Origin: Blastocystis hominis
Lineage: Eukaryota > Sar > Bigyra > Opalinata > Blastocystidae
Assembly (NCBI RefSeq): GCF_000151665.1
Contig: NW_013171867.1
Span: 780,427-844,426 of the forward strand
Direction: 5' to 3'
DNA: 64,000 bases
The notes under the pieces are model-generated. The model ran no database searches. It had not been told where the DNA came from and was given only the letters and a program-made list of their open reading frames with translations. The position numbers were made by a program, and so were the translations under genes. Below, in pieces: positions 3 through 51,681 of the stretch. Positions within the stretch are counted from its first letter, which is position 1; every line of letters begins with the position of its first letter.

Positions 3-760
3 CCCTACACCGTGAGCAAAACCTCGCGATTTTCCAGTGCCGCGGGGTCGGTGGGGTCGCCGACGGGTCCGAGCAGCGCGAGCGGCGCGAACAGCGCGAG
101 CGGTCCGCGCCGCGTGCAGTCGCTGGCGGGGACGCCGCAGCGGTCGATGCGGTCGGACAGCGACGCGGTGAGCCGGCTGGACCGCGAGCTGGAAGCGTAC
201 ACGGTGGACATGCACTCCAAATACAAGTGCTACGCGTCAGTGTTCGTGCTGGGCGCGGACGGACGCCATCACCCCGCCACCATCAACCAGATCATGCGGA
301 CCCGCGGGAGCAAGCGGCTCTTCTACGGAGTCACGTTTTCGGACGGGTATCGACCCGCGACGGCGAGCTTCTACGTGGTAGGATTCCCGCGGGAGTGCGA
401 GGTAGACGCGGTATGGCGGGCCGAACGATCATGATTTTGTTCCCGAGGAGAACATCAAGTCGAGTGCGAGTCACCGCGGGGATTGACGCGTAGTGAATCT
501 GCCGGGAAGTCGGGGAGGTCGGAGTACCGCGGGGGAGGTGCGATCGGCGCAGACACGTGCGAATCGCGAGGAGACGGAGCGGGAATTGTCGAAAACGCTG
601 CGCGAATCGTCGGAGAAGATGGTGGCTCTTGTAAACCTACTCAAAGAAATGCATGGGAATGAGGCGGGGGTGCAGCGTGTGGCGGCGGAGATGCAGAGGC
701 TGGCGCAGGGGTTGGTGGAGAATGATACACATATGCTGAACGTGCTGCGATCTTTCGTGT
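3..760 (+). CDS. Coiled-coil protein, 5'-truncated, stop made by poly(A)
   Basis: The reading frame enters from the left edge. Visible exons are 3-374, 406-463 and 494-760, with introns of 31 and 30 nt that keep phase. The first part is Ser/Gly-rich and low in complexity. A compact segment with conserved-looking aromatic residues follows (roughly 211-374), and the C-terminal third is a charged amphipathic helix typical of a coiled coil. I do not recognise the family and assign no function. No stop codon precedes the TGTTTGTT element at 765; the in-frame T at 760 is followed by exactly 4 nt and then the element, so polyadenylation would give UAA. A genomic TAG exists only at 778-780, beyond the element. 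The upstream part of the gene lies outside the window. Confidence 0.7.
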
Positions 761-764
761 GGCG

Positions 765-772
765 TGTTTGTT
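765..772 (+). terminator. TGTTTGTT 3'-end element
   Basis: Perfect copy of the element, lying in the context T-GGCG-TGTTTGTT. The same TGGCG context occurs before the elements of the NOL9 and cpn60 genes in this window. Confidence 0.75.
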
Positions 773-1062
773 GGAAATAGAATGTGATGGGAGTGGAGAT
801 GGGTAGCGCAATTCATAGGTGGAGATGCGTTCTGAAGAATTGGAAAAAGCAATCTGCTGGGATACAATCATTGACAAATAGGGGTGATGAGTTTATGATC
901 AAAATCCCCAATCAGTTTTGGGCTGTTCCAGGCTATTTCGATTTCTATACGCACACAAAATGCATTACCATACACAAGGAGTATTCTCAATAAACATCAT
1001 CAATCAGAAGATCAATACTCGTAATCTCTCTTTCTTTCTCTCTCTTTCGTCTTTACAAGTGA
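773..1062. other. Intergenic, convergent 3' ends
   Basis: No gene seen. Pyrimidine-rich runs occur at 1024-1050. A TGTTTATT-like motif on the minus strand near 996-989 may be the 3'-end signal of the minus-strand gene that stops at 1063. Confidence 0.4.
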
Positions 1063-2427
1063 TTAAAACTCCTCCGATTCATCCACATGCACATGCAGCG
1101 TTCCCGAAATTGGCACATTCGTAACCACCCTCACCTTGGTTCCTTCCACCATCGCGTACGCCTGGTAGAAGCAAGGCTCGTCAAGAACGAACGACCACTG
1201 CACTTTCTGAATCTGCTTGAATAGAAGCGAAGCTTTGAAGTCGATTTCCCACTCCGTGGCTTGTTGCTGGCTCAGTTTCTTGTCTGCCTGCGTGCCAACG
1301 ATCGTGTTCACGCCTTCCTCGATTACTGTATCGACGATCTGCGTGTTGATGATCCTTCGGAAGTGGCCTTGGCTTTCATCGATTAAGATGGTGTCTTTTC
1401 CATCGCCTCCCCATCCGTACATGCTGTTCGCAATGCGGAGTCCCACTACGTCTTGCTCTCCTTGAGGATTCATGATGATTCGGCCATTTCCCAAAAAGAA
1501 GGTATCTTGAATCACAGTTAAATAGAACGTGTTGAGAATGAGATTGTTGTAGTCCAGGTAACAATTCTCCATGCGAGTTACACCGGCATTCACGATGATG
1601 CCAACACCTCCGTGAGAAGTGTCGCAGTTCCATGTGTGGACTCCCTTCAGCACGCTGGCTTCGCCATTCACAATGACTCCGATCTTTCCTCCATACACAA
1701 TCGTGTCAACGATATAGTGATCGTTTCCATTCAGAACAATGGCAGTGCCCATTCCGATGAGTTTTCGATCATCCGAATAGTAGTATTCACCAAACCAACA
1801 CTGGTGAACCAAGGTCTCGTGTCCACTGTTAATTTCAATTCCAGTTCGATTGAATCCGATCACGAAATTCTGAGGACCGAAATTCATGCCCATGGTGTGA
1901 TCGACTCGAGCCGCGCCGGACGCTTGGTGAGACGCATCAAACATCATGAAATCGAACCCAATACCTTGGTTGCAAGACTGTTGCTTGTTATTACACTCCT
2001 TCGTTCCCACTTCCACAAGGAAGTCGTCCGGATTAAATGTGCTGTCGGCGCGCAGCGTTCCGCTTGTCATTCTCCAGTTGCCAGTATAGGATCGGAACAC
2101 CAAGGGTCCACTCAGTAGATACTGACCTCCTTGCAAATCGATCACAACGCCGTTACAGTCCTTGATACCGTCCGCCATCTCTCGCGTGCACATAGAAAGC
2201 GCATAATCGATAGCTTTCTGAATGTGTTCCCGACTGTCCACGGTCGCGGTTGGATCGGCACCAAAGTCAAGTACTTTCACAACAGGACCCGAAGGGGACC
2301 TTGCTTCCCATTTTCTGCCCATTATACTTCTGAAGTGTTTTCGTTTCGTTGGAGGTGCGAATTGTGTCTCGTCGACGACAAAGCACGTAGTAAGAGCCAA
2401 CACTAGAATCAGTACCGCAAATCTCAT
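1063..2427 (-). CDS. Secreted pectate-lyase-like beta-helix protein
   Basis: Single-exon ORF of 454 aa with a genomic TAA stop. Residues 1-17 form a hydrophobic signal peptide, so the protein probably enters the secretory pathway. From about residue 50 it carries the V-L-D-F-G-A-D-P motif that opens the pectate-lyase-3/GH28-like right-handed parallel beta-helix family. Repeating short strands rich in G, N, I and V follow, as expected for helix rungs. Four to six cysteines in the middle (N-N-K-Q-Q-S-C region) fit an extracellular protein. The substrate cannot be deduced, and catalytic carboxylates of true polygalacturonases are not obvious. The family is common in bacteria and fungi, so lateral acquisition is possible but not shown. 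Lack of introns contrasts with most neighbours. Confidence 0.75.
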   Translation of the reverse strand: MRFAVLILVLALTTCFVVDETQFAPPTKRKHFRSIMGRKWEARSPSGPVVKVLDFGADPTATVDSREHIQKAIDYALSMCTREMADGIKDCNGVVIDLQGGQYLLSGPLVFRSYTGNWRMTSGTLRADSTFNPDDFLVEVGTKECNNKQQSCNQGIGFDFMMFDASHQASGAARVDHTMGMNFGPQNFVIGFNRTGIEINSGHETLVHQCWFGEYYYSDDRKLIGMGTAIVLNGNDHYIVDTIVYGGKIGVIVNGEASVLKGVHTWNCDTSHGGVGIIVNAGVTRMENCYLDYNNLILNTFYLTVIQDTFFLGNGRIIMNPQGEQDVVGLRIANSMYGWGGDGKDTILIDESQGHFRRIINTQIVDTVIEEGVNTIVGTQADKKLSQQQATEWEIDFKASLLFKQIQKVQWSFVLDEPCFYQAYAMVEGTKVRVVTNVPISGTLHVHVDESEEF

Positions 2428-2728
2428 AGTTGAAGTTTACAAACAAAAATCAAATGGGGATTGTGTCTTGATTACCTGAAAGATTTCTGATTTCCCGCGG
2501 TGACAAATGAAACGCCTGATGAATGAGGGAAGGATTATCTCTCTCTGATTTGAGATGGAGCAGATTGCGAATGTGCGTTTGAGTCTCGAAGTTGAGATGT
2601 AGTATACCGAAGAGTTTGAAGCAGTTACTGATGAGGCTGTTTTGGATGGTAGTGTGTGAATTTGATATTTAACGACAGATTCCGAAGAGGAGTCCAATCC
2701 CTTGAATGAATTCGCCACCTCACTCCAG
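2428..2728. promoter_or_regulatory. Shared upstream region of divergent genes
   Basis: About 300 bp between two divergent start codons. No convincing ORF. It holds a TTTGTTTGT run on the minus strand near 2446, so a 3' end of an unannotated minus transcript, or a 5'-UTR intron, is possible. Confidence 0.35.
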
Positions 2729-5373
2729 ATGAGTGAAATCGATAGAATTAAAATTTATTCGGCAAGTGAGAATTTGCTACAGCGGTGGGACATGCAAAAT
2801 CTATCAAGATTGTAGATATACCTTTATTCAGGAAATCAAGCGTTGTTGTGATAAAAAAGATTATGAGGGTGTTATAGATGAGATCATACCTATATTGGAA
2901 GATTTGGTAAATGATTCTGAAGTATCGATTCGTGTTGTAACATTAAACCAATTTGAATACATTGCAAATGTAAGCTTATCAAGGGATCTGACGATCTAGC
3001 TCTGTTTTTCGTATAGCTACCAGAGCGGTCTCAATTTCGTTACCAACTCCGCCTTTCCCATTCTCCGCAGTACTCTTCTCGATTCCTACCCCGACGTTTT
3101 CCTCTCTTGTCTACTTTCAACCTAGGTCCAAAAAGCCTCCATTGACGCCTTCGTAGCGAGCTGTAAACATCTCAAACGCGAAGATCAAAGTATCTACACC
3201 TATCTTTTCATTCTGCAAGTACCTCCCGATTTTCCTCTCCCTTTCTCTCTAGTTCGCTCTAAACTCTTCTCCTGAATACCGCGTCGTCGCCTGCGATCTT
3301 TTCCATGACGCGGCTTCGATTCTGGGATCGGAAGTGCTGAGCCAGTTCGGCGTTTCCGAGTTGCTTTTACTGGCCAAAGACCCTTCCTGGAAGGTGCGGA
3401 AGCACGCAATCCTCGCCTTCGGACCCGTGTCGGACATGCTCGACAGCCAGATCGTGGAAACGGGGATTTTTAACTCGATTCTATCGAATTCGAAGGTAGA
3501 AGCGTGGGCGAGAGGGTGGACGGTAGAATGCTCCATGGCCGGTGAAGCGAGCGTGTGCGATCGTGATTCCGGAGGTTTTTCGCAATATAAAGTCGCACAA
3601 AATGTTTCTAACGATCACAAAGACGGTGGGAGAATTATTCCGTGATGAGTTTGTTTTTCGTTTTGTAATCAATAAAAGGAACGAGTTTGTGAAGCAAGCC
3701 ATGTTGCAGACGTTGGGACATTTAATCGCGATTGTCCCAGAACACTTCCACGTTGATTTGAATCATTTTTATAATATTCAGATCAGCGACGATCTGAAAA
3801 CGAGATATTTGCAGCTCGAAAACGCCAATGACGACCTTCCGAACAATCTCTACGGCCGCTGCTGCGCCTTCTATTTCCCCGCGGTTTTGAAGTCCATTTC
3901 GGAGACCAATCGTTTCTGGGAGGACACGAACGGGTGGTACTCGCGTCTGTCGTACCACCAGGACTCGATCACGTGCCGCAGCCTGGCGTATTCGCTGCAC
4001 GTGGTCGCCGAAATCATCGGGAGCAAGAACACGGAGAAGTTCCTTCTGCCGATCCAGGAGCGTTTTCTCGGGGAGAAGGACGACGTGCGCACCGGCGTCA
4101 TCAAGAACATGGCCAAGCTCTGGCGCTTTTTCTCTCCGGAGCGGCGCGAAGAAGCCGCCAAAGTACTCTCGCCTCGCTCCCGCGATCTTCCGCGTAGAAA
4201 CTCCCCGAGCTCGTGACGCAGCTGCTGGAGTCGCGCACCTGGTGGCTGCGTCTGGAGCTCAGCCGGCAGCTGCCCGACTTCGCCGCGCTGCTGAGCAGCC
4301 AGGCCGTGCTGGCCACGCTCGCGCCGCTCTTTCTCTCGCTCCTCGCCGACCCGGTGAGTTCTGTCCGCGAAATGACGTACCGCTGCGTTTTCTCTTTCAT
4401 TCATTCAGCGCCAACGCTACCTACGCGATCCTCCGCCCCGCGCTCGACGCCAATCCGCAGCGCGGCGTGCTCCTCCTCTACCAGCTCATCACGCTCGCCA
4501 AGTCCGCTAAGTACGCGCAGCGGCAAGTGGGACCTTCGACCCCTCTCATCCCAGCTCTTCCTGCTCTGCTGCCCCTCCTTCGTCCCGCTGCTCTCCAAGG
4601 CTTCCTTCAAGCAGCTCATTCGCCCCGTGATCGGGGTTTTGGCGCGCGATCGCGTCCCCGCTGTGCGCCAAATGGCCTTGGAATTGGTCCTGCAGGAGCC
4701 GGGTAGCCGCGGGGAGCGGGATTGAGCGTAGTCAAGAAGGTACGGAAATTGTTCGGGTTTCGACGCGTCGTGGACGCTCTCATCGATGACACCGATCGCG
4801 AGATTCGATGGCTCCTCGCCACGCATCCGCTCACGCGCGAGATCGCGCGACAGCGATGGGGGGAAACCGGGGAAACTGGGGAAACTGGGGAAACTGGGGA
4901 AACTGGGGAAGGGATGAAGGAGGAAATCCAGATTCGGTTGCCGGATGATCCAATTAGGGAAACCGGGGAAACCGGGGAAACCGATTCGAGTCCGAAAGAG
5001 AAAAAGGAGAATTCCGCTGTGATCGAGCAAAACCCGATCAACGAAGATCAAAACCCGATCAACGAAGATCAAAACCCGATCAACGAAGATCAAAACCCGA
5101 TCAACGAAGATCAAAACCCGATCAGCGAAGACCAAAACCCGATCAGCGAAGACCAAAACCCGATCGATGCTGGAGAGACGAAGGAGGAGGCAGGAGAGAG
5201 GACGGAAAGCGATCCAGCGGAAGCCCATCTCGACGCCAGTTCCTCCTCGGAAGATGCTCCCGCCCAGGCGGACCTCCCTGCCAGCCCTTCGTCTCTCCCC
5301 GATCCTCCCGGGCTCCCATCGCCCGCATCGCCCACACCAGTCGCTCCCCCACCTTCATCCGCGCTTGTATCTT
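2729..5373 (+). CDS. PPP4R1-like HEAT-repeat phosphatase regulatory subunit, stop made by poly(A)
   Basis: Ten exons keep phase: 2729-2784, 2816-2969, 3000-3095, 3126-3218, 3253-3495, 3527-4162, 4198-4376, 4409-4526, 4555-4702 and 4732-5373, with introns of 28-35 nt. The product is about 788 aa. Residues from about 25 to 560 are HEAT-type helical pairs with the recurrent D-x-x-x-x-V-R pattern (for example LVNDSEVSIRVV near residue 55), closest in feel to the protein phosphatase 4 regulatory subunit 1/PP2A-A scaffold group. The C-terminal 210 aa are acidic and repetitive: Gly-Glu-Thr triplets, then six 7-residue units. There is no in-frame stop before the 3' element at 5378. The T at 5373 is in frame and followed by 4 nt and then TGTTTGCT, so poly(A) would give UAA. 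Which phosphatase it binds is inferred. Confidence 0.75.
4859..4910 (+). repeat. 9-bp coding tandem repeat (Gly-Glu-Thr)n
   Basis: Five units of GGGGAAACT/C in frame. A second short run of three units lies at 4958-4981. Unit length is a multiple of three, so changes in copy number keep the frame. Confidence 0.9.
5029..5163 (+). repeat. 21-bp coding tandem repeat, about six units
   Basis: Six nearly identical 21-bp units each encode seven residues (Q-N-P-I-N/S-E-D). The first four are identical at DNA level and the last two share an AAC to AGC and GAT to GAC change, which points to recent unit duplication. Confidence 0.92.
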
Positions 5374-5377
5374 TCCC

Positions 5378-5395
5378 TGTTTGCTCCAACAAACA
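5378..5395. terminator. Back-to-back 3'-end elements (palindrome)
   Basis: TGTTTGCT on the plus strand and TGTTTGTT on the minus strand are joined by CC. The element serves the PPP4R1-like gene ending at 5373 and the aminotransferase gene ending at 5407. Confidence 0.75.
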
Positions 5396-5406
5396 CGCCG
5401 CATAGC

Positions 5407-6977
5407 TTAATCCTCATATTTCTTCATGAACGCATGCTGGAAGCCGTCCATACGCTCGATCACCTTATCGATCTCGCTCTCCTGCGGCAGAATCGTCGTC
5501 CGCACGTGGTACGTTCCGTCCTTCTGCTGGAACCCGCTTCCGGGCACCGTCACGATACCCGTCTGCTGCAGCATCTCCTCGCAGTACAAAAAGTCAGGCG
5601 CCACGCCGCGCTGCTTCGCGGCCTCGACGGCCTTCTTGGGCAGCACGACCTTGAAGAAGATGTAGAGCGAGCCGTCGACCTGGTTGCACGTGATGCCGGG
5701 CAGCTTCGACAGCGCGGCCACCAGCTTCACCGCGCGGCGCTGCAGGGAGGCGAGGATGGCGGACTTCTCCTCGATGTAGAGCGGGTAGGAGGGGTCGCCC
5801 TCGCGCGGAGGGTTCACCATGCAGTCCAGAGCGATCTGGCCGTCCGTGTTGGCGCACAGATTGATCGACCACATCTTGGTGATCTGCGCGAACACCTCGG
5901 GGTCGAAGCCCATCGCCTGCAGGTAGCCGCCGCGACGGCCGCACTCGCCGAAGAACCCCTTGCTGATGCTGTGGAAGGAGATGATCTGCGCGTTCTTGGC
6001 CTCCTCGCCCATGTCCAGCGCGACTTTGCGGAACGACACGAACTTCTTGTGGGGCACATAGATGTTCTCCTGGTAGACTTCATCGGCCAGCAGCACGAGC
6101 TTGTTCCGGATGCAGAAGCGAATGCACTCGCGCATTTCCTCCTCGCCCAAGCACTACGACTCAGCAGAGCGCAGCGAGAACCTACCATGCCGGTCGGATT
6201 GCCGGGGTTGATGATCACCATTCCCTTCAGATTGATTCCCTTCGCCTTGGCCTCCTCCAAACGCGTTTCCAGCTCGTTCATGTCCAGACCCCAGTCCTTC
6301 TCCTCGTTCAGATAATACCCGATCAGTTTCGTGCCGTACAGCGTGATCGTCGCAGAGTAGAGAGGGTACTGCGGGATGGGCGTGAGGAAGCCGTCGTTCG
6401 GGGAGGTCGAAAGCAGCATCAAGGCGTTCTGCACCGACTGCGAAGCGCCGTTCGAAAGGTAGATCTCCTTCGGATTGCAGGGGTAGCCGTCACGACGGCC
6501 AATCGCATCCGCGACGTCCTTCAAGACCTCGGGAATACCCTGACTGTTGCTGTAAGCGCCACTGCCTCCGGGATTGGATTTGAGTAAACGGTGAGCACGC
6601 TCCACCACATCGGAGGGGAAGGTTCCTTCCGGGACAATCTTTTCAAGGCCCGGATAGGATGTAAGCGCAAGTACTTGACGAACAAATGTAAGAGGTTTCT
6701 GGTTCAGTTGCTACACTTCACGGAATTGAGATTTTGCGTACCTGAGGGTTACCAATGTTGCAGTAAACGAGAGAATCGAAAGGATACTTCTTTCCACTTT
6801 TGATCTCCTCCTCGATCTCTCCAGCGCGCACTACGATTTGGCCTCGAACGGCGTATTGAGCCTCGAGCAACTAGACGTGGTATTACTCACGAGTCTCTTA
6901 CTTTAGGATTCACTTCGTTGATGGTAACCGCTTTATCTATGCATTAAACGAATTCTCGACGTAATGATACCTTGCAT
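5407..6977 (-). CDS. GPT: Alanine aminotransferase
   Basis: Pyridoxal-phosphate enzyme interconverting alanine plus 2-oxoglutarate and pyruvate plus glutamate. Five phase-consistent exons on the minus strand: 6977-6971, 6936-6902, 6870-6742, 6710-6186 and 6153-5407, giving 480 aa, the normal length. The first exon is only 7 nt (ATGCAAG). Family marks are visible: GGSGAYSNSQG near residue 115, the NPGNPTG cofactor motif at the end of exon 4, and the Schiff-base lysine in S-I-S-K-G-F-F-G-E-C-G-x-R-G-G, codon 5961-5959. No N-terminal presequence is apparent, so a cytosolic form is likely, although alanine metabolism is also tied to the mitochondrion-related organelle in this lineage. The stop is a genomic TAA. 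Confidence 0.93.
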
Positions 6978-8855: not shown

Positions 8856-8873
8856 TGTTTGTTCCAACAAACA
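8856..8873. terminator. Back-to-back 3'-end elements (palindrome)
   Basis: TGTTTGTTCCAACAAACA, a perfect head-to-head pair with a CC centre, between convergent RPS4 and NOL9. The flanking CGCC on the right is shared with the similar palindrome at 5378. Confidence 0.8.
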
Positions 8874-8877
8874 CGCC

Positions 8878-10991
8878 ATTGAGGGAAGTCTCGCTTCAGG
8901 TTGGTGCGCGAGGAGATCGGCAGACAGCCCGCGCCCACCAGGTTGCTGGCTTGGAACAAGGTGCTGTACGGCAGCGACTACGCCTTACGCCTGCGCAAAT
9001 GACCCACCGAGCTCAGCAACTCCGAGGGGATGGGCGAGGCGGAGATCACGAGCGTGTTCACGCGTTCCAGGTCGTTTCGGGAGAGCGGCGACAGCACGAC
9101 GATCCGATTCCTGCGCAGATCCACGGACTGCACGACCCCCAGTCCCAGCGCCTCGCACACGGGCAGTCTGCGCAGCAGCTTGGGCGTTCTCTTGGCGCGC
9201 GGAATGGGCACGTTCGCCGTCCACGGCGTGCCTGCCTCGCGGGCATCCTCGTTCGCCTCGTTCGCCTCGTTCGCCTCGGTGGCCTCGGCTGCCGGCACAA
9301 ACGCGGGATCGACGGCGAGTCCCACGACGGACCCGGCGAGCGTGAGATAGTAATAGACGGGCGAGCTGTCGCGGAGATAGCACTGCACGCGGTCGATGGC
9401 GAAGGAATAGCGCGGCAGCGCGAGCAGCCGGTCGCCCAGCCGGCCTCGCCGATTCTCCACGAAGTACTGCACCAGTCGCTCCGTGCGCAGACTCTTCGTG
9501 TTCAGCTTCTTCTTCCCCTCGCTCTGCGCGTAGAGCGTCACCAAACGCGACGTCTCCAGATTCTCGATCGGACACTTCTCCGGCTCGCTCGGCAGCTGAA
9601 TCTACGCTGGATCCCCGCGGGAATCCCTACAAACACGACGTGGGAACACGTGATCGCCTGCTTGGTGGCGTTGAGAATCTCCGCGCCGACGCCCTTGATC
9701 CACCCGCACGTGTTGATCACCAACGGATACTCTACATCGCAGCGGAGAGGGCGAACGAACTCGAAAGCGACGTTGTGTAGCGCTCCACCAAGTAGTTCAT
9801 GCACTCGATGTACACGGCTGGGTGGTTCTCGGGGGATTTCTCTCCGAAATACACCGCACTACGTCGCAGAGACCGCACACACAAACCTGAACAAGTGCCG
9901 GTTGATGTGGCACACGGTCGACCCGCGGAACTGGGGAGTCGACAGCAGACTCAGTGAGAGATAGCCTTCAGGAGTGCCGTCTCCCTGGCCCACGTCGATG
10001 TCCAAAAAAGCCACTTTTTCGTGATGATTTAAGATGGAGTTGAGGAGGGCGCGGCAATAGACGCTTTTTCCCGCGTTTCTCGCACCGCAGACGAGAGTGA
10101 CGCTCATGGCGGAGTTTGAAATGAGAGAGAAGCTCGGAATGAAGGGAAGAAAAAAAGGAAACGTCTCGCCAAGACGAATCGAAAGTGAGGATTGTGTTGT
10201 GTGTGTTGGACTTTTGTTTGCTGCGAGGAATGGGGTTGTATTCGGTGAGAAGGCAAATCTCGGGTAGTTGGAACCGAGAGGCGTCTTCTTTTAGAGTAGT
10301 GGGATTGTAATCGAAGGAGAGAAGGTCTTCGTCGTTTTCTTCTTCTTCTACCTCTCCTTCTCCCTCTTCTTCTTCTCCCTCTCCCTCTCCCTCTCCCTCT
10401 CCCTCTCCCTCTCCCTCCTCTTCTTCTTCTTCTTCTTCTTCTTCTTCCAGACTATTTGATTTGGGAGACTGCAAATAAACACGTTTCTTATCGGGGAAAA
10501 TAGCGATTACAACTACTGGAAAGAAACATGATTAAAACAACTTGGATTATTTTGTAATAACAGTTTATAATCATTACGAGCATTTGTACTTACCAAATAA
10601 TGAGAACGGACATCTGTCTTTTTACTATCAATTCCAGTTATAGGAATCGCGCTCTCATATGTCGGTGACTCGACAAAATACGGAGTTTGACGTATTTTGC
10701 AATGGTGACCTGAGAATGCAGAGAATACAAAAGAGCATACCATAAACTTCTACCCTTCCCTTTATAACATCAAAGTAATAGGTTCCAGCCACAATAGCAG
10801 AGTCTCCAGGAAACATCCCAACAAATAGAGTATTCGTATCGTCATCCTTTAATACACACGATCGACTTTTCAATGAACTCACTGGGTAGTCAATCGATTC
10901 CTAATTGTAAAAAAACGCAAAAGGCCAGTACCTCTGACTTCCTCTCATTAAAATATACTTGTGCTTGGGACTTGGGAGAGTATGGAGGCAT
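8878..10991 (-). CDS. NOL9: NOL9/Grc3-type polynucleotide 5'-kinase, stop made by poly(A)
   Basis: RNA 5'-kinase acting in pre-rRNA processing in the nucleolus. The well-resolved part is exons 10107-9887, 9858-9761, 9731-9631, 9601-9008 and 8977-8878 with introns of 28-30 nt. It opens with a P-loop (G-A-R-N-A-G-K-S), then D-x-D-x-G-Q-G-D-x-T-P-x-G and the downstream N-T-C-G-W-I-K-G motif, diagnostic of the family. An N-terminal beta-domain is encoded upstream from the ATG at 10991-10989 (segment ending G-R-V-E-V-Y-G) followed by a Glu/Gly repeat. I could not resolve the joins at about 10590-10515 and 10200-10110. The gene has no stop before the element: the in-frame T at 8878 precedes GGCG and TGTTTGTT, so poly(A) gives UAA. 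Confidence 0.8.
10332..10449 (-). repeat. Glu/Gly-coding purine repeat in NOL9
   Basis: Simple-sequence run of (CTTCTT)n, (CTCCCT)n and (CTTCTT)n as read on the plus strand; on the coding strand it gives poly-Glu and Glu-Gly tracts. Confidence 0.9.
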
Positions 10992-26660: not shown

Positions 26661-28505
26661 ATGGAGGAACTTAAGGGAAGCGAATTTCTCCTGGACGGTT
26701 ACATAACGCGTGGTGAAGCAAAGGAAATCACTATTGGGGGCTGCAAGTATAGCCTCCAATATTATCAAGGCGATCACGAGGATGAATACACGTTGACGAG
26801 AGCTGGGAAGGTTTGCCTATTCCAAAATGGCATACTGAAGATGTGCTTTGAGGTGGATGCGAACGGGAGCGAAATCGGTGACTTCACGCGATTTGATAAT
26901 GGATGTGTCGCATTTGTGCAATCCTTCGATGAAATCTGGGACAGAAAGAATTTTCATCGTATAATAAACCATGTCCGAGGCGAGCGAATGGAAATCTATT
27001 CGCATGCGAGTGATCACCTGATATATCACGGTGAATTTAATGAGAAGCGAGAACGAGAAGGATGGGGCATCCAATATGACGAAGAAACGGGTGCCATGCT
27101 GCTCGAAGGGATGTGGAAGGAAAACAAGCTGGTGGAAATCATCCGCAAGATCAAGGGAAGCATCATGACGGAGTTCAAGCGAAACGGGAACAACACCATC
27201 GCTTCGAATCGAATTCCCCTCTATGTGGGTGAATTCGTGTATGATGAATCGAAAGAATCGTTTCTTCGAAATGGTCGAGGATACTGGATCGATGAAGAAA
27301 CTCGGATTGCTACTCGCGAAGTGGAATGGAAGATGGAGTGGAAGTGAGTGGAAGAGATCTCTATGATGGATGGTACACTCGATCCACAACTCCAAAACCC
27401 AAACCCAAACCCAAACCCACTCCGATGTCTGCTCCTGCTCCTGCTCCAAAACGCGAAGAACCTGCTCCTCTTCGATTCAGCGTCACTGGATCTACAAAAT
27501 GGATCGATGTGAGTTTGCAAGTGACCGATTTGAAGATTTCATCGAATTGCTGTAACGATTTGAATGCATTGGATCTGAATCGATTCGAGTGGCTACGATC
27601 TATCGAAATCGGCGATGAATGTTTTGGATCAGTGAGAACATTCAAAATCGATGGATTGAATCGATTGAAAACTATCAAAATCGGAAACAATTCGTTTTCG
27701 CAAATGAAAAATGGGGATGAAAGTGATGAATCAGAATCATTCCAAATATTGAATTGTGATTCATTGGAACCCATTCAAATTGGTGAATATCATCCTTCTG
27801 ATTATGGAGGAGACTTTGAATTGAAGAATCTTCCACAATTGGAATCCATTCAAATCGGTGAAAGGAGTTTCGGAGATTTTGCTGGATACTTTGAATTGGA
27901 GAATCTACCACAATTACAATCCATTCAAATTGGTTCAATTGAAAGTAGTTCATGCAATTTCTATTATTGTTCGTTTGTGATTCGAGGTATTGATATGATA
28001 TTGAATATTTGAATGATGTATAGATCTTCCAAATCTACAATCCATTACTATAGGTGAAAATGCATTCAACGATTGCTTCTCAGTAATAATGGAAAGTATT
28101 GAATGAATTCGAATGAAATGATTGATATAGATCTTCCATCATTACAATCCATTCAACTCGGTTATGGTGCACTTCAAGGAAGTGCTGGTGATTCAGTTTC
28201 ATTGACACTTCGAAGTAATAATGAATTGATTGTAAATGATTTGCTTTGTAGATCTTCCAAATCTAACATCAATCACTTCTATAGGATGTAGTTTCGTTTA
28301 TCCTTGTGTAGTGACATTGGCAAGTATTTCTGAATATTGAATATTGATAGTATTTAGATATTCCAAATCTTCAAAATGTCAACCTACCTGGTGGTTTGTT
28401 TGGTTATCCATTCTATAAAGTTCGATCGAAATCAATTTCGAGTATAGTTTGATTGATTTGATTTGATTCATAGATGTTTCTTCGATTCTCGCTGATCTTG
28501 TCTAA
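26661..28505 (+). CDS. MORN plus leucine-rich-repeat protein with exon-sized repeats
   Basis: The N-terminal 220 residues hold MORN-type repeats (Y-H-G-E-F-N-E...G-W-G-I-Q-Y and Y-V-G-E-F...G-R-G-Y-W). A Lys-Pro/Ala-Pro linker follows, then leucine-rich repeats of the L-x-x-L-x-S-I-x-I-G-x-x-x-F type. From 27986 the gene is cut into exons 28024-28095, 28131-28214, 28252-28323, 28358-28441 and 28474-28505 by introns of 32-37 nt. All are phase 1, and each exon begins with N/D-L/I-P-x-L. Internal exons are 72, 84, 72 and 84 nt. A one-base frame change near 27325 between MORN and linker parts remains unexplained, so the gene may be damaged. Such LRRs usually bind proteins; location unknown. Confidence 0.6.
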
Positions 28506-28509: not shown

Positions 28510-30640
28510 AGCATTCAATCTATAATATTGATTTGATTTGATTTGTTCAGTGATTCGTCATTGTTTAGGAACATTTCCATTGATTGGTTGATTGTTTGAT
28601 TGTTTGTTTCAAACCGATTCTCGATCACAATTCATGATTCTATAGTTATCAAAATATCAATCCTGCCTGATTATTATGATGTTCTTCTTTACTATTTTAA
28701 CAATGATACTCAATTATGATTGTTGTTTCAACCAATCAATCAATCAATCAATCATGCGTTAAACAGTTCTAAAAGCATGAATGATTGATTGATTGAATGA
28801 TTGAATCGATGACATTATTGATGTAGAATTACAGTTCATTGGTTATGATAAAGGTCTTTGTTGTTTTGTGAATCACTCCACAGAGAGAGAATCTTTCGTC
28901 CATTCATTCATTCATTTCTCTGTTTTCATTTCAGTGTTGAATTGCTGAAATCGAATCGAATCCAACTCCAATATCACAACCAATCATATTCCCATTCATT
29001 TCGATTCTCTCTCATTCACTCTTCATTATCATTATCACGTATTACATTCATAAATAACTAACTAATACATATCATTGAATGGATTAAGATCTTAAGCAAT
29101 GAATACTATTTCTTCTTTTCGTTTCTTTTCTCTTTTCTTTCATCCATTCATGGTACAAACCATCTCCATGCTATGCAATCTTTGTACATCCAACTCATAT
29201 TCATTCAATAGATTGTGACCAATTACACAAATCATTCCAGTACTATTCTATTCACATATAGCATACAATCTGTGATAATATCTAGGAATCATTCAGTTCT
29301 AACCACTATATACCAATCATTGTGCATTCCAACTAACAATAACGGAATTTACTACAAACTCCAATCATTCATTCATCGATTGGTTATTCCAGTACTAAGT
29401 ATCAACAGTATTGTTCCTGCTACTCAGAATTAGTTATTTTATGAAAATGGATTTAACAGAATCAAACATTGTGTTAAACCAATGAAATGACAGAATCGTG
29501 TTTGTCTGGATTTTGTTTGTTTTGAAGCAAAACTAGCATGATCTATGTAATTCGTTTCAGGATGAGCTAAAACAGATCCCTGTGAAATATCATCATTCCA
29601 GCTATTGTTCGTCATAATTTGTGAAAATGACTCCATTTCCATTGCTACTTCATACATATGTTATTTTCTACTATTCTATTACATTCTAGTATTGTTGTTG
29701 TTTTCATTCATATTGGCCATTTCTGATTATTCCACACTTACCTATCTTATTTTCACAGTATTCTATTCCATGGAGTATACTAATAAGCCAAAATATACAA
29801 TCAATCACAAATACACATTATTCTATCTTCCCATACAGAACAATGATAATGATGATGATGACAAAACATCAACTATTCACAATCAATACCATTGAGAATA
29901 ACTATTGTGAAGACTCTTGTTTGTTAATACTGCTCATTCCTTCTCTCAGCTTATAACACGAACTAGCAACATTATTAGTTGTCACATTTAGAATGTGAAT
30001 TCATTATGGGCTTTGATACAATTCATATCACACAATATGTACCAAACTGAAACAATACACATTTGTTGTTATTCTATTGCAGATATTCATTTTCCAAGTA
30101 TTGATTCAAAGTATCTCGAGACTATAGTATACAGATTAGTCATATATCAAAGGAAATACAACAATACTTGTGGTAAATGACTGATTCATCCTTCCTATTT
30201 CTATTGATGAGTTCATCCATATTTGATACATGTCACATAACAAAAATGATACTATTTTCACAATAACAAAAGCTCTTTCGATCAATAATAATATGATTTA
30301 TCAACTTGTAGCCATCTTAAACCTCATTAATTTGGAACAATAGTAGTAAGGGAATGGCACTATTTGCGTGAAACTTGGTGGCAGTTTTCTTTATATGCTA
30401 TTTTGCACAATGACCACAATTGCGATCCTTTGTCCATCGTTGTAATCGACCAACCGATTCTGAGTCCTTGACTATCGTTCCTAGGCTGTCTGGTCGACAA
30501 TCATCGGTCAGGAAGCAGGTTTCGTGCTTTCTTAGACCAATTCCTTTCTACTATCAACCTAGTGCTCATTTCTATTTTTGGTGTTTGTTACATCAGTTAT
30601 ACTTGGATACAAGAAAGCAGTAGACGTACCTAGCTAAGGT
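28510..30640. other. AT-rich stretch with simple repeats, no gene seen
   Basis: Two kb rich in (ATTG)n and (ATTC)n-like repeats (28560-28620, 28738-28810, 28895-28915). No credible ORF or RNA gene. A TGTTTGTTTG run lies at 30670. Confidence 0.45.
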
Positions 30641-40210: not shown

Positions 40211-40216
40211 ACTCTT

Positions 40217-43121: not shown

Positions 43122-43136
43122 TGTTTGTGACAAACA
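43122..43136. terminator. Back-to-back 3'-end elements (palindrome)
   Basis: TGTTTGTGACAAACA, overlapping head-to-head copies between the membrane-protein gene (stop 43052) and the minus-strand gene (stop 43209). Confidence 0.65.
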
Positions 43137-43208
43137 ATCGAAAAGAAATTCTTGAGAACTTCATAGGCGAAAGGCAACGGACTACACAGAAATCGACCGG
43201 GCGGCAGC

Positions 43209-45372: not shown

Positions 45373-45403
45373 TTTCGTTCCCTTTCTAACAAACAAACAA
45401 TGA

Positions 45404-47691
45404 ATCTTGGTTGCTTTGGATTACATTGTCTACAGCCTGCTGAATCCAATCCGAAAACTAAAGAATCACACACGATCCTAATACCCACATTGAAAACAAA
45501 GTGGTGGAGCAAACCTCTCTTTCCCGCTCTGAAATCAGCAAAATCGTCTTCCTTGGCGGCAATGGCTTTCACCCCACTTTTCCTGTACACAGACCCATCT
45601 GGATTATTGATCTCAACAGTGCATGGCTTGAAATGGATCAGTTGCCCAGGCAGCAGACACGGCTTCACCGGCTCTCCATTCGCTCTCTACCATTCATTTC
45701 GCTCCATGTTTCAACAGCCTGCTTCCAGTTCTTCTCATAGAGAACCTTTTCGGCTGGAATCTGCGAATCGTCGCTATAAAACAAGTCCTGTAACCTGGGG
45801 TGAGACCAAGGCAGCAAGCACCAGAACAGCTCCAGTTTGGTTTTCTTGCAGTGGCAAAGCCCAGAAACGATATCGTCCTGCAGATTGATGTAGGTCTGCG
45901 CAGAGAAGCGAGGGAATAAATCATCTCCCATGATGGTCGTGAACGTGTTTGCAAGTGTGTCGGGCACCAGACAGGGAGAAAGAGTTTGTCTCGGTGGATC
46001 GAATGTGTAGCACGTGTTCGGGAAGTCGCGTTGCAGCGCCAGCGAAAGTAGCGACGCCACGCCGCCGCCCATGGAATGTCCTGTGATGATTAACCGCGTG
46101 AACGACGTGATGTGCGAACGAACGGAGTGTGATATCTCGATATCTGTGAGATTGGGACGATTGTGCAACAATGCTGTGAGAATGTTGCTCTCCTCTAAAC
46201 TCTGCAAGATGCTCTCCGTGACCAGAAGCATTCCCTGCTTGTTAAACGTCGCAATCGTATCCACTTGGTGTGTGTATGCGTTCTTTCCGTTAAATCCATA
46301 TCGATTTCCCAGGCTTTCGAGTGATACGGGTCCTATTTGGAATCCGAGCTTTCAGATTTTCTACGACTCAGCATGTCGGTGAGCACGTTCGCCAGCGTTT
46401 TCGTTCCGCGAACACACAAAACCACAGCGTCGGTGTAGTAATCGTACGCTAGAAGCCACGGAGTAGCGTCCAGACTACGACTCAATGAGTGTTTTGGAAT
46501 CGAACTTGTCGTCTAGAGAGTAATAAATCAACTCTCCCTTGCACTCTTCGATCAGAGTGCTCATTGTTACAACTTCTAAAATAGAACTCCTTCCCTCGAT
46601 GAGTCGTTTTCGAATTTGCCGAAGCATGGAAACGAACGGAGGCACTTTCCCCTCTTTCATTTTTCGAAGCGATTCGCTACGTTCAATATATAATGAAGGT
46701 CATAAGCTACAAGGAAACGCCATAGATCGCATTTGCATATTCCGCATAGTGCTTTAGCTCATTAAGCACTTCCTTATTCGTAAATAACGTTTCTTCCTGT
46801 TCGATTGGGTGGCTTTGCAGCTCTTCGGGGTGTTCTTTCAGATAAACGAGGTATTGGTCGAGTGGGAGATTCTTTACGACGTTGAGTGGAACGCCGCTCT
46901 CGCGTTTGTGGTGCCAAACGAGATTGTTGAGAAGCAGACCGCAGATGATGTCGGTGAAGCAGAGATCTTGAAAGGACGACGTCGATAGGAGGGTCTCTGC
47001 CAGCATGCCTAGCGTCTCGTCATTACAAACTACCCGAATCACTGCGGATTCCAAGATTCGTTTCAGTCCCGTTTTCGTGAACTTCGGAACAGTGAGCAAA
47101 ACGAGAGACACGGTTACCAACCAGGATTCCAGAGAGGTCAAGACGCAGTAGCTAGTGATACAGAAGGTGAACTCTTTTGAAACAAGGGTTTTTGTTATGA
47201 TGAGCTACATAGGTACAACAAAATAACGAATACCACAAACCACAAAGGAGAGTTTATCGTATTCAATACCATCAGTGTAAATACGTGAATAGTAAAAAAG
47301 AGGCTCACTCCCCTTCTCTTGCTGCTTTACAAAATCAAGGAATCATAAAAATAGAATAAGGATATCTCAAGTACGGTGCCCTTCATTGCCAGATGCATGA
47401 TAAGGAAGGAAGTCTATAATAGCAACGGAACCAGCTTCAGATACCAGAGAAAGCTTTGTATGGGCTATTATTTGAACGAAAAAGAACAAATTGTATGGTC
47501 CTCTACATCATTAGATAGAATGGTGAGAAAAACGGTAGGCCTATGTCCGGAAACACCTGATTATACAATTGAAGGGCACGAAATAGGAAAATAGAGCACA
47601 AAGCTCTGTACAGCAAGTCTAGGCCCATCAGCATCGTTGAATCGTCGTCCCCGATATAGTTTCTCTTGTGATTAATCAATAATTTCACCAT
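45404..47691 (-). CDS. Sn1-specific diacylglycerol-lipase-like enzyme, stop made by poly(A)
   Basis: Class 3 lipase fold. The nucleophile serine is in G-H-S-M-G-G-G (codon 46075-46073). Before it lies A-T-P-W-L-L-A-Y-D-Y-Y...V-L-C-V-R-G-T, the strand and R-G-T typical of DAG lipases. After it come T-F-D-P-P-R (candidate aspartate) and a C-terminal L-L-P-G-Q-L-I-H-F domain with H near the end. A helical region at 47141-46707 precedes the lipase part. N-terminal membrane-like segments from 47691 are tentative. A phase-consistent 31-nt intron ends at 46477 with TGAGTCGTAG. There is no stop before the element: the in-frame T at 45404 precedes TCAT and TGTTTGTT, giving UAA after poly(A). The next gene's ATG is only 31 bp further on. 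Confidence 0.72.
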
Positions 47692-47742
47692 CGCATGAAT
47701 AATACACTTTTGTCCTATTATTGAAGTTCATTTTATTTTTGC

Positions 47743-48276
47743 ATGCTTGCATTATGTCCCCTTACGGCTCTAGCGCGCGGGGTTGTGTCTAGGTAACGTG
47801 CTGCGAGTCTGAATTCAACGTAGAGGCTTTGTTACTATTCACTTCCATACTCCAAATGGTGAAACAAAGACAGTGAAGGCAGAACCCGGTGAAAATCTTC
47901 TTCGTGTTGCTCAGCACAATGATATCCCTTTGGAAGGTTTCCATTTCCTCATTACATTGAATTATAGGTGCCTGCGAGTGTGGTTTAGCTTGTGCTACTT
48001 GCCATGTAATTCTTGACAAGAAGCATTACGATGCCATTCCTGAGCCAACAGAAGAGGAGGAAGATTGCCTTGACAATGCCTCTGGCATCACAGAAACGTA
48101 TTGAGTGATTGAAATAGGATAATCGGTAGCTCGCGCCTCAGTTGTCAAATCAAAGTGAATGAAGACATGGACGGAATGGAGGTGCGTGTTTTCCATATAC
48201 TATCTTACCACCTAGGTCACGGTCCCCAAGATTACCCGCAACTTCTATGTCGATGGTCATGTTCCCAAGCCGCATT
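47743..48276 (+). CDS. Mitochondrial-type [2Fe-2S] ferredoxin, stop made by poly(A)
   Basis: Adrenodoxin-type electron carrier, probably in the mitochondrion-related organelle (iron-sulfur assembly or hydrogen metabolism). Exons 47743-47792, 47824-47936, 47968-48097, 48130-48181 and 48216-48276 keep phase; introns are 31-34 nt. The 135-aa product has a short Leu/Ala/Arg presequence. Cluster ligands lie in C-E-C-G-L-A-C-A-T-C, plus C in E-E-D-C-L and the family's fourth cysteine position. The C-terminus V-P-K-P-H matches where plant and stramenopile homologues end. Right after that His codon comes T48276, then 4 nt and TGTTTTCC, so poly(A) would yield UAA. The genomic frame otherwise reads on to a TAA at 48330 through low-complexity residues. 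Confidence 0.9.
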
Positions 48277-48280
48277 CGTT

Positions 48281-48295
48281 TGTTTTCCTCAAACA
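48281..48295. terminator. Overlapping 3'-end elements (palindrome), degenerate
   Basis: TGTTTTCCTCAAACA: TGTTTTCC on plus for ferredoxin and TGTTTGAG on minus for the UNC93-like gene. Both genes have an in-frame T exactly 5 nt upstream of their element. Confidence 0.6.
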
Positions 48296-48299
48296 CAAC

Positions 48300-49907
48300 A
48301 GTTACTCATTTTCTTCTTCTCCTTCACAATAAAAGTCACATACCCAACATAGGCGCCCAACACCAAGCAGGTAGTGATCACCAGTTCGCACAAGAACTAC
48401 ACATTCTACCCTTTCTTCCATTCTTACTTGCGTCGGCGTGCAGCTCTTCGCTCCGTCCGATACAAACAGCGGCATGTAGAACAGCGGCACCGCGAATCCG
48501 AAGCATTGCAGCTACTCTCGACCTCTCTCTCCATGCCTACCATTCGGAAAACCGAGTTCGCGTTCGTGCGATCGGACACGAAATACTGATTCACCGTCGC
48601 CAAGCACTACGACTCATCGAGGTCTTCGCGCCTCTACCTCCGTCTGGAACCCCGCATCCGCGATCGCCATCACCACGCCTGTGGCGTAAATCAGCCAGTT
48701 CTGCATCGAGTTGGCGAACCAGGAGAGCGCGATGGCGGTCAATTCGCAGAACACCGCGACCGAAACGACCACGAGATGGCCGAAGCGATCGCTGACCCAG
48801 CCGTGGATGAAGGAGAAGACGACATCGACGATGCAGTACACGCCGGTCATCGTGCCGACGGTGGCCAAGTTGACGATTTGGCGCGTGAACATGTTCTGCA
48901 GGAACACTTGCTGATAGCCGTCGTTGAAGAAGAAGCACAGCAGAAGCAGCATTCGCGGCGTCATGGCGGTGTGCAGCACGGACTGAATCTCGCTGAGAAC
49001 GCCGCGAGACTGCGGGGAGGAGGCTTTTTTGTCGGAATCTGTGTCTTCTTTGACGGTTCTTTCGTTGTTTTCGGGGGACTCGGCGGTCAACTGACCGTCG
49101 GAAGACATGATGACCACTTCGCTGGGAGGGGAGACGACGACTCGCTTGAGGAAGCCCAGGGGGATCACGGAGAAACCCGCCATGCAGCCAAGGAAGATGA
49201 AGAGGATGGACGTGCTGCCGTTCCAACCGTTGTGGATGTCCGAGGAAATGCCCAACAGATCGACGAGAACGCCGGAGGTAATGCTACCCAACGCCTGGGT
49301 GTGAGAGAAAACAAATAAGGAGGGAATACGCTGCCGAACATGTAAATAGACATAAAAATACCAGACTTCTTGCCTCGGTCAGAGTCGTTCGAGTTGTTTC
49401 CTAAAATGATGCCTTGCGAGGCCCAAACCATCTAAAATTCATAGAGAGCGGATAGAAGTACGGCAGATAAAAAGCCATGGCACGCACAGATAAGATAGGG
49501 TACAACAGGCAGAATATAAGAGAATTGGGATATGTATATTCTGGAAATGATAGTGGAAAGCAAAAACTACATGTAGGAAAAACCGCACCAAAAAATCGTT
49601 CGTTCTGCACTTCCAAACATCTTAATTACGCTGGGAACAAGGAAATTGGAAAACGCGTTGACGATGTTAACGATCGCCATACCGATGGAACCTATGTTCC
49701 CTACAGTGAAGTAACCCGATAGCCAATACCGAGAATGGGCACCGCAAAATTCATAAAGGCATTCGTTCCTACAGTCAACAAGTCTCAACAGCCCCTACCG
49801 AAGAAATTGATGCCAAAAGCTACACTAAGTAGAGCCACGTTGATAGCATTCATTTTGGTCCCCCCTTGAACTTCTGACTTGTTTATTACAGGCTCACAAA
49901 TGCTCAT
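48300..49907 (-). CDS. UNC93/MFSD11-like major facilitator protein
   Basis: At least nine exons separated by introns of 29-35 nt, among them 49797-49768, 49733-49705, 48632-48602, 48544-48516 and 48429-48399. The product is a polytopic membrane protein. The N-terminal half has G-N-I-G-S-I-G-M-A-I-V-N-I-V-N-A-F-S-N-F and W-A-S-Q-G near 49430, marks of UNC93-type transporters. The second half has a charged cytosolic loop, then R-x-L-L-L-L-C-F-F-F-N-D-G-Y and G-W-V-S-D-R-F-G (the MFS motif A form) near 48790. Substrate unknown. The last frame ends with K-K-K-M-S-N and T48300, then GTTG and TGTTTGAG: a poly(A)-made UAA fits. A genomic TGA lies only 9 nt further, inside the element. Confidence 0.8.
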
Positions 49908-49909
49908 TT

Positions 49910-50559
49910 TTCTTGAAGATTGACGCCGCATAAACTGGTATTCGATATACTTTTTTTTGAAATGAATTAAGTTCTGTAGTGATGACGCTTGGGTGCCCCG
50001 CGATTCTTGTTTCTTCTCAAAACACAATTAAATCTCTTATACCAATAATCAATTTCTCGATTTTCTCTCTTATATTGGGTGCCCAACGTGTTAACTCAGT
50101 CCATACTATTCGGCAGTAGTTGTAGGACATGGCACAGATCATACATCGATTTAACCTACAAATTAGTTGGACATATCGTGCAATACAGTCTCATGCTAAA
50201 AACACAAATAAAAAGAATCACCTTTCGTTTCGTTCATATATCCCTTTCTTGAAGAGTTTACGTTGTTATCGCAAACATTGGTATTTGGGTTGAGGTAAGG
50301 TAATAGTTGTTGTACAGGCTTCTGAGACTTGTTAAGCAAGCTTATCCACCTTTTTTGACTCGACAGAGCAGTCAATAATTGCGCTCACGTAGATGGTTAT
50401 TCCAACTCAGATTTTTGCGTAATTCCAGTTCTGTCGTAAAGAGAATACTTGGACGATCCGAGAACGACGATTAGTTTTGGTTTATTCGCACACCTTCCCA
50501 CCATGGTTCTCACTCCTCCACCAGTTTCTACAAAGCCTCTTTCCACCTCCTGTATATTC
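49910..50559. other. Intergenic
   Basis: About 650 bp, partly pyrimidine-rich (50570-50700 is inside the next gene). No ORF or RNA gene seen. Confidence 0.4.
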
Positions 50560-50567
50560 AACAAACA
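50560..50567 (-). terminator. TGTTTGTT 3'-end element of PAF1
   Basis: Perfect motif in context T-GGGG-TGTTTGTT, the T at 50572 being in frame with the last PAF1 exon. Confidence 0.75.
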
Positions 50568-50571
50568 CCCC

Positions 50572-51681
50572 AATATTCGGCTTCATTGTACATTTCGTAC
50601 TTCTCCGTTTCTCTCACTTTCACCTTCTCCACTTCGATTCCCACATTCTCCGTCCTCCTCGAAGCCTTCTACCGCTTATTCCTTCCTCCCATACCAACAT
50701 GTCCCATCAGCGAATACACATAGTCGTTCATCAGCGGAATATACCTCGCAATGCCTCCCTGCGATTCAGGGTCCCAGTCCAACGCGATGATTTCCTTGCT
50801 TGCCTCACCCCGGATCGGGCGAATCTGCGAGCAATCGTACGATCGCTGCCACTCCAACACTTGCTCTTCTTTCCTCGACGCACCCGAGGACGCTGCAGGC
50901 TTCAGCTGCTCGCAGTAATTGATTCCGTGGGCTTCTACGCGTCAGCTAGGACGCCAAATCGCACGATGGAAGCGAAGGAAGGAGTTCAGCTCGTCGGATT
51001 GATTGCCGTCGTCTTCGAATCGCTGCAATGAACCAGCTCCACAGAACGTACCACCAAACGGTAGTCGAAACACGCACTGACCTCGTCGGGAAGCACCTCC
51101 CACACGGCTTCGGCCACCACGTTGGGGTTGTCGGGACGCGTGAGCGGGATCGGAGCGAACGACTGCTCGATTCGCTCTTTCTTTGAGGAGGCAGGGGAGC
51201 TGCGAGGCGAGGACGGCTGCGAGGAGCGGGAAGGCTGCTTGGTGGTTGTGGAGAGACTGCCATACTCCATGAAGCGGAGCCAGGAATCGGGAGTTTCGTT
51301 GATTAGATTGGACTTTTCGTTCTCGTCAAGATCCGCAAAGAGAACCTGGTCTTCGGGACTCATGGACTCCTTCACTGGACCTGCTTCTAGTAAAATAAGC
51401 GACTAGGAAAAGAAATACGAGAGTATTTGTCGTAACCAATGATGGGAAAGTCCACCTGGCGAATACTGAAATGGACGGGCCATCTATAGTCTGTGTAAAC
51501 ACTTGATTCGGGTAAAAACTCGCTTAATCTTTGGAATTAGCCAAATAGACGAAGAGTGAATACCCCGAACTATCGAACGGAATATTTAAAAATCGGGGGC
51601 CGACGGGGATCTCTGGAATACTACAATGGTAGAAACGACTTGTTCGCTGCCATACTCGTTGCCCATTTCCAAGTTGCACAT
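50572..51681 (-). CDS. PAF1: PAF1, RNA polymerase II-associated factor 1, stop made by poly(A)
   Basis: Core subunit of the Paf1 transcription elongation complex in the nucleus. Diagnostic blocks: F-M-C-N-L-E-M-G-N-D-I-P-E-I-P...F-L-N-I-P-F-D at the N-terminus (the family's C-R-V-x-Y-x-N-x-L-P-x-I-P...K-F), then D-x-V-L...S-W-L-R-F-M-E-Y and a C-terminal E-W-Q-R-S-Y-D with R-Y-I-P-L-M-N. Introns of 30-35 nt keep phase, including one ending GACGCGTAG (about 50969-50940) and one that removes the TAG at 50684 (GTTGGT...GCGGTAG, 30 nt). The last exon ends in Asn-Glu-Ala-Glu-Tyr with in-frame T50572, 4 nt and TGTTTGTT. The true start may lie upstream of ATG 51681; frame is open to about 51790 without an ATG. 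Confidence 0.8.

Follow-up and report, generated by a model that had tools for sequence, protein, structure and literature searches.

In a stretch of 64,000 nucleotides from Blastocystis hominis (NCBI RefSeq assembly GCF_000151665.1, contig NW_013171867.1, positions 780,427 to 844,426 of the forward strand; hereafter the window), a group of genes appears to reach the 3' end without a genomic stop codon, and stop codons made by polyadenylation, as published for nuclear genes of Blastocystis, very probably explain these ends. A preliminary description of the window had listed seven such genes, each with no in-frame stop ahead of a TGTTTG-type element and with an in-frame T separated from that element by a 4-nt spacer, so that a poly(A) tail added after the T would complete UAA. 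The seven pairs of T and element positions (760/765, 5373/5378, 8878/8873, 45404/45399, 48276/48281, 48300/48295, and 50572/50567) were all exact, with the 4-nt spacer in seven of seven, and tailing after an in-phase T was the best explanation for them. The process is already known in the genus and the finding is not new: the fixed spacer, which had been put forward as a novelty, is given in the abstract of Klimes et al. 2014 (PMC4159000), and the consistent single-T phase, put forward likewise, was anticipated by the U, UA, and UG transcript ends all described by Gentekaki et al. 2017 (PMC5608401) and includes one doubtful position among the seven. What is added here is a set of corrections (one doubtful site, one added candidate, and a T that is not exclusive to genes without genomic stops) together with the geometry of elements placed back to back between convergent genes.

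Predicted gene ends and their homologues

Under the proposed mechanism, a GU-rich downstream element (UGUUUGUU) would set cleavage 4 nt upstream of itself, so that the transcript would end with the T that opens the would-be stop codon; the tail would then contribute AA to give UAA. The genomic codon at the cleavage T would thus be free to be a non-stop codon (TGG, TTC, TCG, and TGT are found there), and the 3' untranslated region (UTR) of these nuclear genes would be reduced to nothing. The DNA anatomy and the favored phase come from the present analysis, and cleavage and tailing come from published expressed sequence tags (ESTs) and RNA-seq of the genus. In the ESTs of Blastocystis subtype 7 (ST7), the TGTTTGTT element lies exactly 4 nt 3' of the poly(A) site in 2,333 of 2,419 genes (ca. 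96%), elements with more than two substitutions form a rare class of ca. 4%, stops are made by the poly(A) tail in 372 of the 2,419 genes (359 UAA and 13 UGA), and tailing turns a genomic TGA into UAA in 90 genes (PMC4159000). Poly(A)-made stops have also been reported for 26% of the genes of subtype 1 (ST1) (PMC5608401), the process is restated in PMC9896827, and changing the element and two upstream thymines together lowered reporter expression 324-fold (PMC6395660); the ordinary polyadenylation signals of another protist are described in PMC8767320. The element may be bound by a short CstF-64-like protein, as was inferred for a protein of 142 residues in PMC4159000. A CSTF2_hinge match (28.8 bits, cut-off 27) was present in a 141-aa open frame (G000:C1:100012-100170 (-), locus L045), which can be compared with the 142-residue protein, although an open frame is not equivalent to a protein length, and a second, weaker match was present on contig C37.

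Exact copies of TGTTTGTT were found at 765, 8873, 45399, and 50567, and the elements of six of the seven genes were within two substitutions of it, the ferredoxin element having three. T occupied the cleavage base in all seven. Phases were compared using a crude model of codon usage and GT..AG introns, the codon usage being drawn from 61 long open frames, and the figures given below are the best score for the T-phase vs. the next-best phase. These spliced models favored codon position 1 for the T in six of the seven genes, three of them narrowly, and left the lipase gene at 45404 ambiguous; the list of seven, exact in its positions, was also incomplete, at least one further candidate (43141/43136) being present.

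The predicted end of the ferredoxin gene (48276..48288, plus strand; T48276, TGTTTTCC at 48281), whose protein would terminate in ...NFYVDGHVPKPH, is the strongest of the seven cases, and it rests on homology because the model margin was negligible (1.4 vs. 0.9) and lent no real support. The H of ...TRNFYVDGHVPKPH is encoded by the final codon before T48276, and when the C-terminal exon was read through the element and searched against the PDB, the match stopped exactly at that H. The alignment ran to the final position of 8rmc_I (Ferredoxin-2, mitochondrial; residues 103-121 of 121, E 2.8e-07), which we take to be from a human structure, and, weakly, the last residue of 5uj5_A (Adrenodoxin; residues 114-132 of 132, E 0.15). 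The octamer CGTTTGTT at 48277 is nearer to the consensus than TGTTTTCC, and cleavage 4 nt 5' of CGTTTGTT would complete no stop.

Predicted protein ends also agreed with homologues at two genes outside the window. A 6-phosphogluconate dehydrogenase (6PGD) gene at locus L023 has an in-phase T ahead of TGTTTGTT as its predicted end, 32 codons short of the next genomic stop in frame, and its Pfam profile was matched over positions 1-290 of 290 at residues 4-295 of 300. An RPN1 homologue at locus L029 aligned with several RPN1 chains up to residue 190-193 of 194, the last aligned residue for the best chain being 191, three short of the predicted end, and its Pfam RPN1_C match ended at profile position 47 of 54. 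Among the other genes in the window, the NOL9, lipase, major facilitator, and Paf1-like matches stopped short of the protein end. These ends bear on the alternative that ordinary genomic stops a few codons past the element are used, with cleavage further 3' and short protein extensions. The next in-frame genomic stops are indeed near, at 3-18 codons after the T (6 for 760, 10 for 5373, 10 for 8878, 11 for 45404, 18 for 48276, 3 for 48300, and 4 for 50572), but ferredoxin would then gain 18 residues past its homologue-matched end and the 6PGD of L023 would gain 32, no other exact TGTTTG occurs on the plus strand from the ferredoxin gene to 53907 (although weaker variants occur at 49395, 49880, and 52057), and the published ESTs put the cleavage site at a distance of 4 nt upstream of the element for the great majority of genes (PMC4159000), such that we consider read-through to these stops highly improbable.

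Among the remaining ends on the plus strand, that at 760..772 has T760 in codon position 1 before TGTTTGTT at 765 and after 91 open codons (10.8 vs. 0.6), and that at 5373..5385 has T5373 before TGTTTGCT at 5378, one substitution from the consensus (19.1 vs. 16.3), in a gene whose last exon is rich in repeats and has all three phases open near the end. The tandem repeats of this exon (4858-5165, plus strand) comprise GGGGAAACT and a repeat encoding NPINEDQ. On the minus strand, the NOL9-like gene ends at 8866..8878 (T8878, TGTTTGTT at 8873; 22.4 vs. 20.2) following a 30-nt intron at 9007-8978, its Pfam NOL9_C match (E 2e-07, 31.4 bits) being slightly under the cut-off of 31.6. The major facilitator (MFS) gene, which is convergent with the ferredoxin gene, ends at 48288..48300 with ...KEKKKMSN (T48300, TGTTTGAG at 48295, two substitutions; 10.3 vs. 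5.6) and has an MFS_1 match (7.1e-12) up to residue 180 of 224. A possibly Paf1-like gene ends at 50560..50572 (T50572, TGTTTGTT at 50567; 8.5 vs. 0.6) following a 30-nt intron at 50698-50669; this gene end held, and the name PAF1 that had been attached to it is weak (Paf1 E 0.0039, 16.7 bits vs. a cut-off of 24.7). The added candidate lies at 43129..43141 on the minus strand (T43141, spacer CGAT, TGTTTGTC at 43136; 11.6 vs. 3.2), with a last exon ending in ...PLPFAYEVLKNFF and the next in-frame genomic stop 30 codons on. No Pfam family match was found for the gene at 760, the 121-residue piece of the gene at 5373, or the candidate at 43141.

Given that introns of ca. 30 nt are easily overlooked and that the frame of the lipase gene shifts with one, overlooked 3' introns could place a genomic stop in frame for a subset of the genes; the intron-aware model nevertheless preferred the T-phase in six of the seven, albeit by little for 5373, 8878, and 48276, and we regard this explanation as unlikely.

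Three further candidates in the window were left out of the count: the site at 25686 scored higher in another phase, the site at 30577 had a weak model score, and the site at 51841 scored 14.5, but positions 51841-52300 look non-coding in every frame and the model crosses a chaperonin gene antisense. The gene end at 53985-54003 (minus strand) is ambiguous: T54003 is in phase (43.8 vs. 0.6) before TGTTTGCT at 53998, but a genomic TAG is present 3 nt upstream of the predicted cleavage point. Elsewhere in the window, two consecutive 228-aa open frames with a 22-nt overlap, 665 nt apart, are found at 26661-28012 (plus strand) and may represent a tandem duplication.

The in-phase T across the sample and at genomic stops

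The window belongs to a genome of 18.7 Mb in 40 contigs, over which the genome-wide counts were taken. The GC content of the window was 46.6%, its modeled introns were ca. 30 nt, and the TGTTTGTT octamer occurred 3,601 + 3,703 times genome-wide, overlaps included, vs. 2,724 + 2,732 times for the reversed octamer. Published values are a GC content of 45.2% and introns of ca. 30 nt (PMC5608401), a genome size of 18.8 Mb for ST7 (PMC3129679), and octamer counts of 3,329 + 3,403; size, GC content, intron length, and TGTTTGTT density thus fit ST7 as the most likely subtype. Within the window, TGTTTG occurred 88 times vs. a mean of 41 in shuffled sequences, and none of 100 shuffles reached 88.

The frequency of an in-phase T was evaluated in a sample of 264 kb consisting of the window and 200 kb of contig C13, 7,500 bases of which are N (at locus L005, N makes up 7,500 of 10,000 bases). 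This sample contained 107 exact TGTTTGTT sites, in 22 of which the T-phase frame was open for at least 60 codons up to position -5, and a T was present there in 19 of the 22 (16 of 19 outside the window). At control sites in which all phases were open for fewer than 40 codons, T was present in 33 of 60 (Fisher P=0.007), and at 14 other offsets T accounted for 24-67% of open sites. Among the 19 are two doubtful sites of the window (45399 and 51836), and in two of the 19 (L006 at 2462 and L023 at 9958) the codon beginning at the T is already a genomic stop.

These counts also bear on a selection effect, namely that T is simply common at -5 and that the earlier reader picked the frames that fit. 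A T at 33 of 60 closed-phase sites and at 14 of the 35 ends called genomic (12 of 33 once two probable miscalls are removed) could be expected under such an effect, of which the lipase call is possibly an instance; against it stand the 19 of 22 open T-phase frames with T and the homology that backs the ends of ferredoxin, 6PGD, and RPN1, and a selection effect therefore has, in our judgment, very little probability of accounting for the pattern.

Calls made from open frames at 108 sites gave 15 T, three TA, and one TG ends of the poly(A) type, 45 genomic stops, five ambiguous ends, four open frames without a stop, and 35 uncalled sites. The single T was thus the commonest poly(A)-type class in the sample, and the four TA and TG calls are weak: a single repeat accounts for two of the three TA calls, and the remaining TA call overlaps a genomic TAA. 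The intron-aware caller, run on 92 solitary sites with L005 and sites having fewer than 1,000 bases upstream excluded, returned 10 T, one TA, 30 genomic, four nonstop, and 47 weak ends, weak ends being those set aside with a score below 5 (47 of 92 solitary and two of eight back-to-back ends in this run, and 12 of 48 ends in the back-to-back set described below). A stretch around TGTTTGTT recurs on contig C13 (L006 at 1316, L012 at 8942, and L020 at 1507) and is likely a dispersed repeat.

The preliminary description had also held that genes with a genomic stop do not keep the T. The G at -5 in the RPS4 gene and the C in the aminotransferase gene (names as given in that description) were as stated, and the generalization failed: of the 35 ends called genomic, 14 carried T. 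Two of these 14, at 8873 and 45395, are probably miscalls of the NOL9-like and lipase genes, leaving 12 of 33, among them the window ends with elements at 53907 and 59535, and the presence of T at -5 was rejected as a signature of genes lacking a genomic stop. The element at 53907 follows a TCP-1/cpn60 chaperonin gene (52287-53876, plus strand; Pfam 2.3e-79) that has a genomic stop.

Several observations weigh against the reading of poly(A)-made stops at individual sites or lessen the force of the evidence for it. The model margins were small for 5373, 8878, and 48276; the last exons of four genes are only 20-33 codons long, in which an open frame is weak evidence; and T is in any case the commonest base at -5 (60 of 103 sites). 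The ferredoxin element TGTTTTCC (48281) stands three substitutions from TGTTTGTT, and the chain in a structure entry may end elsewhere than the native C-terminus. The caller made errors, calling the NOL9 end genomic by way of an intronic stop and the lipase element at 45399 nonstop. Finally, the phase of the class 3 lipase gene (45388..45404, minus strand; Lipase_3 7.6e-08) is ambiguous: read unspliced, it would end at T45404 before the element at 45399, and if an intron is removed, either 45488-45458 (31 nt) or 45473-45440 (34 nt), T45404 falls in codon position 3 and T45400, which precedes an overlapping TGTTTGTT at 45395 by 5 nt, falls in position 1. Codon scores (10.9 unspliced vs. 11.6 spliced) did not discriminate between these versions, nor did two distant homologues, and we infer that the spliced version ending at T45400 is the better candidate.

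Back-to-back elements between convergent genes

Four of the seven sites lie in back-to-back elements, in which a TGTTTG on the plus strand is followed closely by the CAAACA of an element on the minus strand: 5373, 8878, and the facing pair 48276/48300 in a variant form. Genome-wide, TGTTTG followed by CAAACA at a gap of 3-7 nt was found at 399 places (ca. 80 per gap length), vs. nine for a reversed-pattern control. The numbers fell to 58 (control 10; 12 per gap length) at 8-12 nt, 114 (control 38; nine per gap length) at 13-25 nt, and 101 (control 43; eight per gap length) at 39-51 nt, the gap lengths counted being 0-25 and 39-51 nt. The 0-12 nt range as a whole held 466 places (control 28), leaving nine at 0-2 nt by subtraction, and some of these counts take in tandem runs of TGTTTG and segmental duplicates. 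The head-to-head order occurred 46 times at 0-12 nt (3.5 per gap length), its reversed control of 299 being expected given that this pattern is contained within most back-to-back pairs. The sharp peak at 3-7 nt on a flat background suggests a preferred geometry rather than mere gradual compaction; joint recognition, a block to read-through, or a mutational process that duplicates the element are candidate causes of such a geometry.

Five such arrangements were delineated in the window. TGTTTGCTCCAACAAACA at 5378..5395 sets the gene ending at 5373 against the aminotransferase element at 5395, and TGTTTGTTCCAACAAACA at 8856..8873 sets the RPS4 element at 8856 (plus strand) against the NOL9-like gene (minus strand), the mRNA ends being predicted to lie 26 nt apart in each. 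At TGTTTGTGACAAACA (43122..43136) and at the variant TGTTTTCCTCAAACA (48281..48295), the latter falling outside the hexamer-pattern count, they are predicted to lie 23 nt apart; the variant separates the facing ferredoxin and MFS genes, both of which appear to have no genomic stop. At TGTTTGATAACAAACA (59520..59535), the minus-strand gene ends at a genomic stop; the call for the plus side is uncertain. Bidirectional poly(A) signals and terminators between convergent genes are known in yeast and SV40, where transcripts arriving from either direction are terminated within a single short stretch; here, by comparison, there are two copies of one fixed element with a gap of mostly 3-7 nt and mRNA ends in the window predicted to be 23-26 nt apart.

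A set of 24 back-to-back sites, comprising four loci and the first 20 places listed of the 0-12-nt search (22 of the 24 with a gap of 3-7 nt), was examined with the caller. Of their 48 ends, 36 were called, as 23 genomic, 12 poly(A)-type, and one without a stop. Both ends were called in 14 of the 24 pairs and both were of the poly(A) type in three, at L027, L028, and L029 (the plus side of L029 being weak, 5.8 vs. 3.4); the pairs at L014 and L023 appear to lack genomic stops on either strand when judged from open frames only, and in each pair one side was not backed by the caller. At two of the poly(A)-type ends the predicted cleavage point falls on a genomic stop, a TAA at L025 and a TGA on the plus side of L027, each around 893 (plus strand), and the TGA of L027 would become UAA by tailing. 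An enrichment of poly(A)-made stops at back-to-back over solitary ends was not supported (12 of 35 vs. 11 of 41, P=0.62; nonstop calls, one and four, respectively, excluded). Loci L001 and L003 carry one gene end on two contigs, consistent with the duplicated blocks reported for ST7 (PMC3129679).

The sequences of 31 back-to-back sites gave no support to an extended hairpin, the flanking positions -1 to -4 pairing in 2, 9, 9, and 9 of the 31, respectively. Pairing was higher at -5 and -6 (14 and 17 of 31), which may reflect an abundance of T at the cleavage base of both strands, and folding of four short examples gave weak stems of -0.8 to -4.5 kcal/mol. Complementarity is not clearly present beyond the elements, and the arrangement therefore resembles two packed signals rather than a long hairpin. 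It is conceivable, at somewhat less than an even chance, that convergent genes share a dedicated bidirectional 3'-end module of two TGTTTG elements at a gap of 3-7 nt, and that at some places (ferredoxin/MFS in the window, L028, and more weakly L029) two facing genes would each rely on tailing for a stop codon.

The back-to-back packing of convergent tail signals may be new. No report of it was found in a limited literature search that had subscription papers and preprints outside its scope, and the word 'convergent' is absent from the main text of PMC5608401 and PMC3129679. In the nearest account, the positions of the motifs could keep apart the members of most of 95 overlapping gene pairs of subtype 4 (ST4), one example of which is a 3'-end overlap (PMC5608401).

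Relation to known systems and implications

The gene ends described here share with the ST7 and ST1 system (Klimes et al. 2014; Gentekaki et al. 2017) the same TGTTTGTT element, the 4-nt spacer, the completion of UAA by tailing, and genes without genomic stops, and the stop codons are essentially no different, the ferredoxin element at 48281 with its three substitutions belonging to the published rare class; the back-to-back packing seen here goes without mention in the accessible text of those papers. Mitochondrial stops completed by polyadenylation (mammals, dinoflagellate cox3, and Diplonema; cited in PMC4159000) likewise turn U or UA into UAA via the tail, but they involve organellar machinery, and the accessible text of PMC4159000 names no TGTTTGTT element with a fixed spacer for them. 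Mammalian PAY* (cited in PMC4159000) likewise concerns nuclear mRNA, with UAU or UAC becoming UAA by cleavage and tailing; unlike in Blastocystis, it yields an alternative truncated form and the gene keeps its own genomic stop.

Recognizing tail-made stops leads to fewer wrong C-termini and fewer false overlapping genes in annotation, and the element constitutes an exact cleavage signal that is legible from DNA. Should the back-to-back arrangement prove to be a functional module, it would offer a clean system for studying how convergent transcription units stay separate and to what point 3' UTRs can be shortened before faulty 3'-end processing turns costly.

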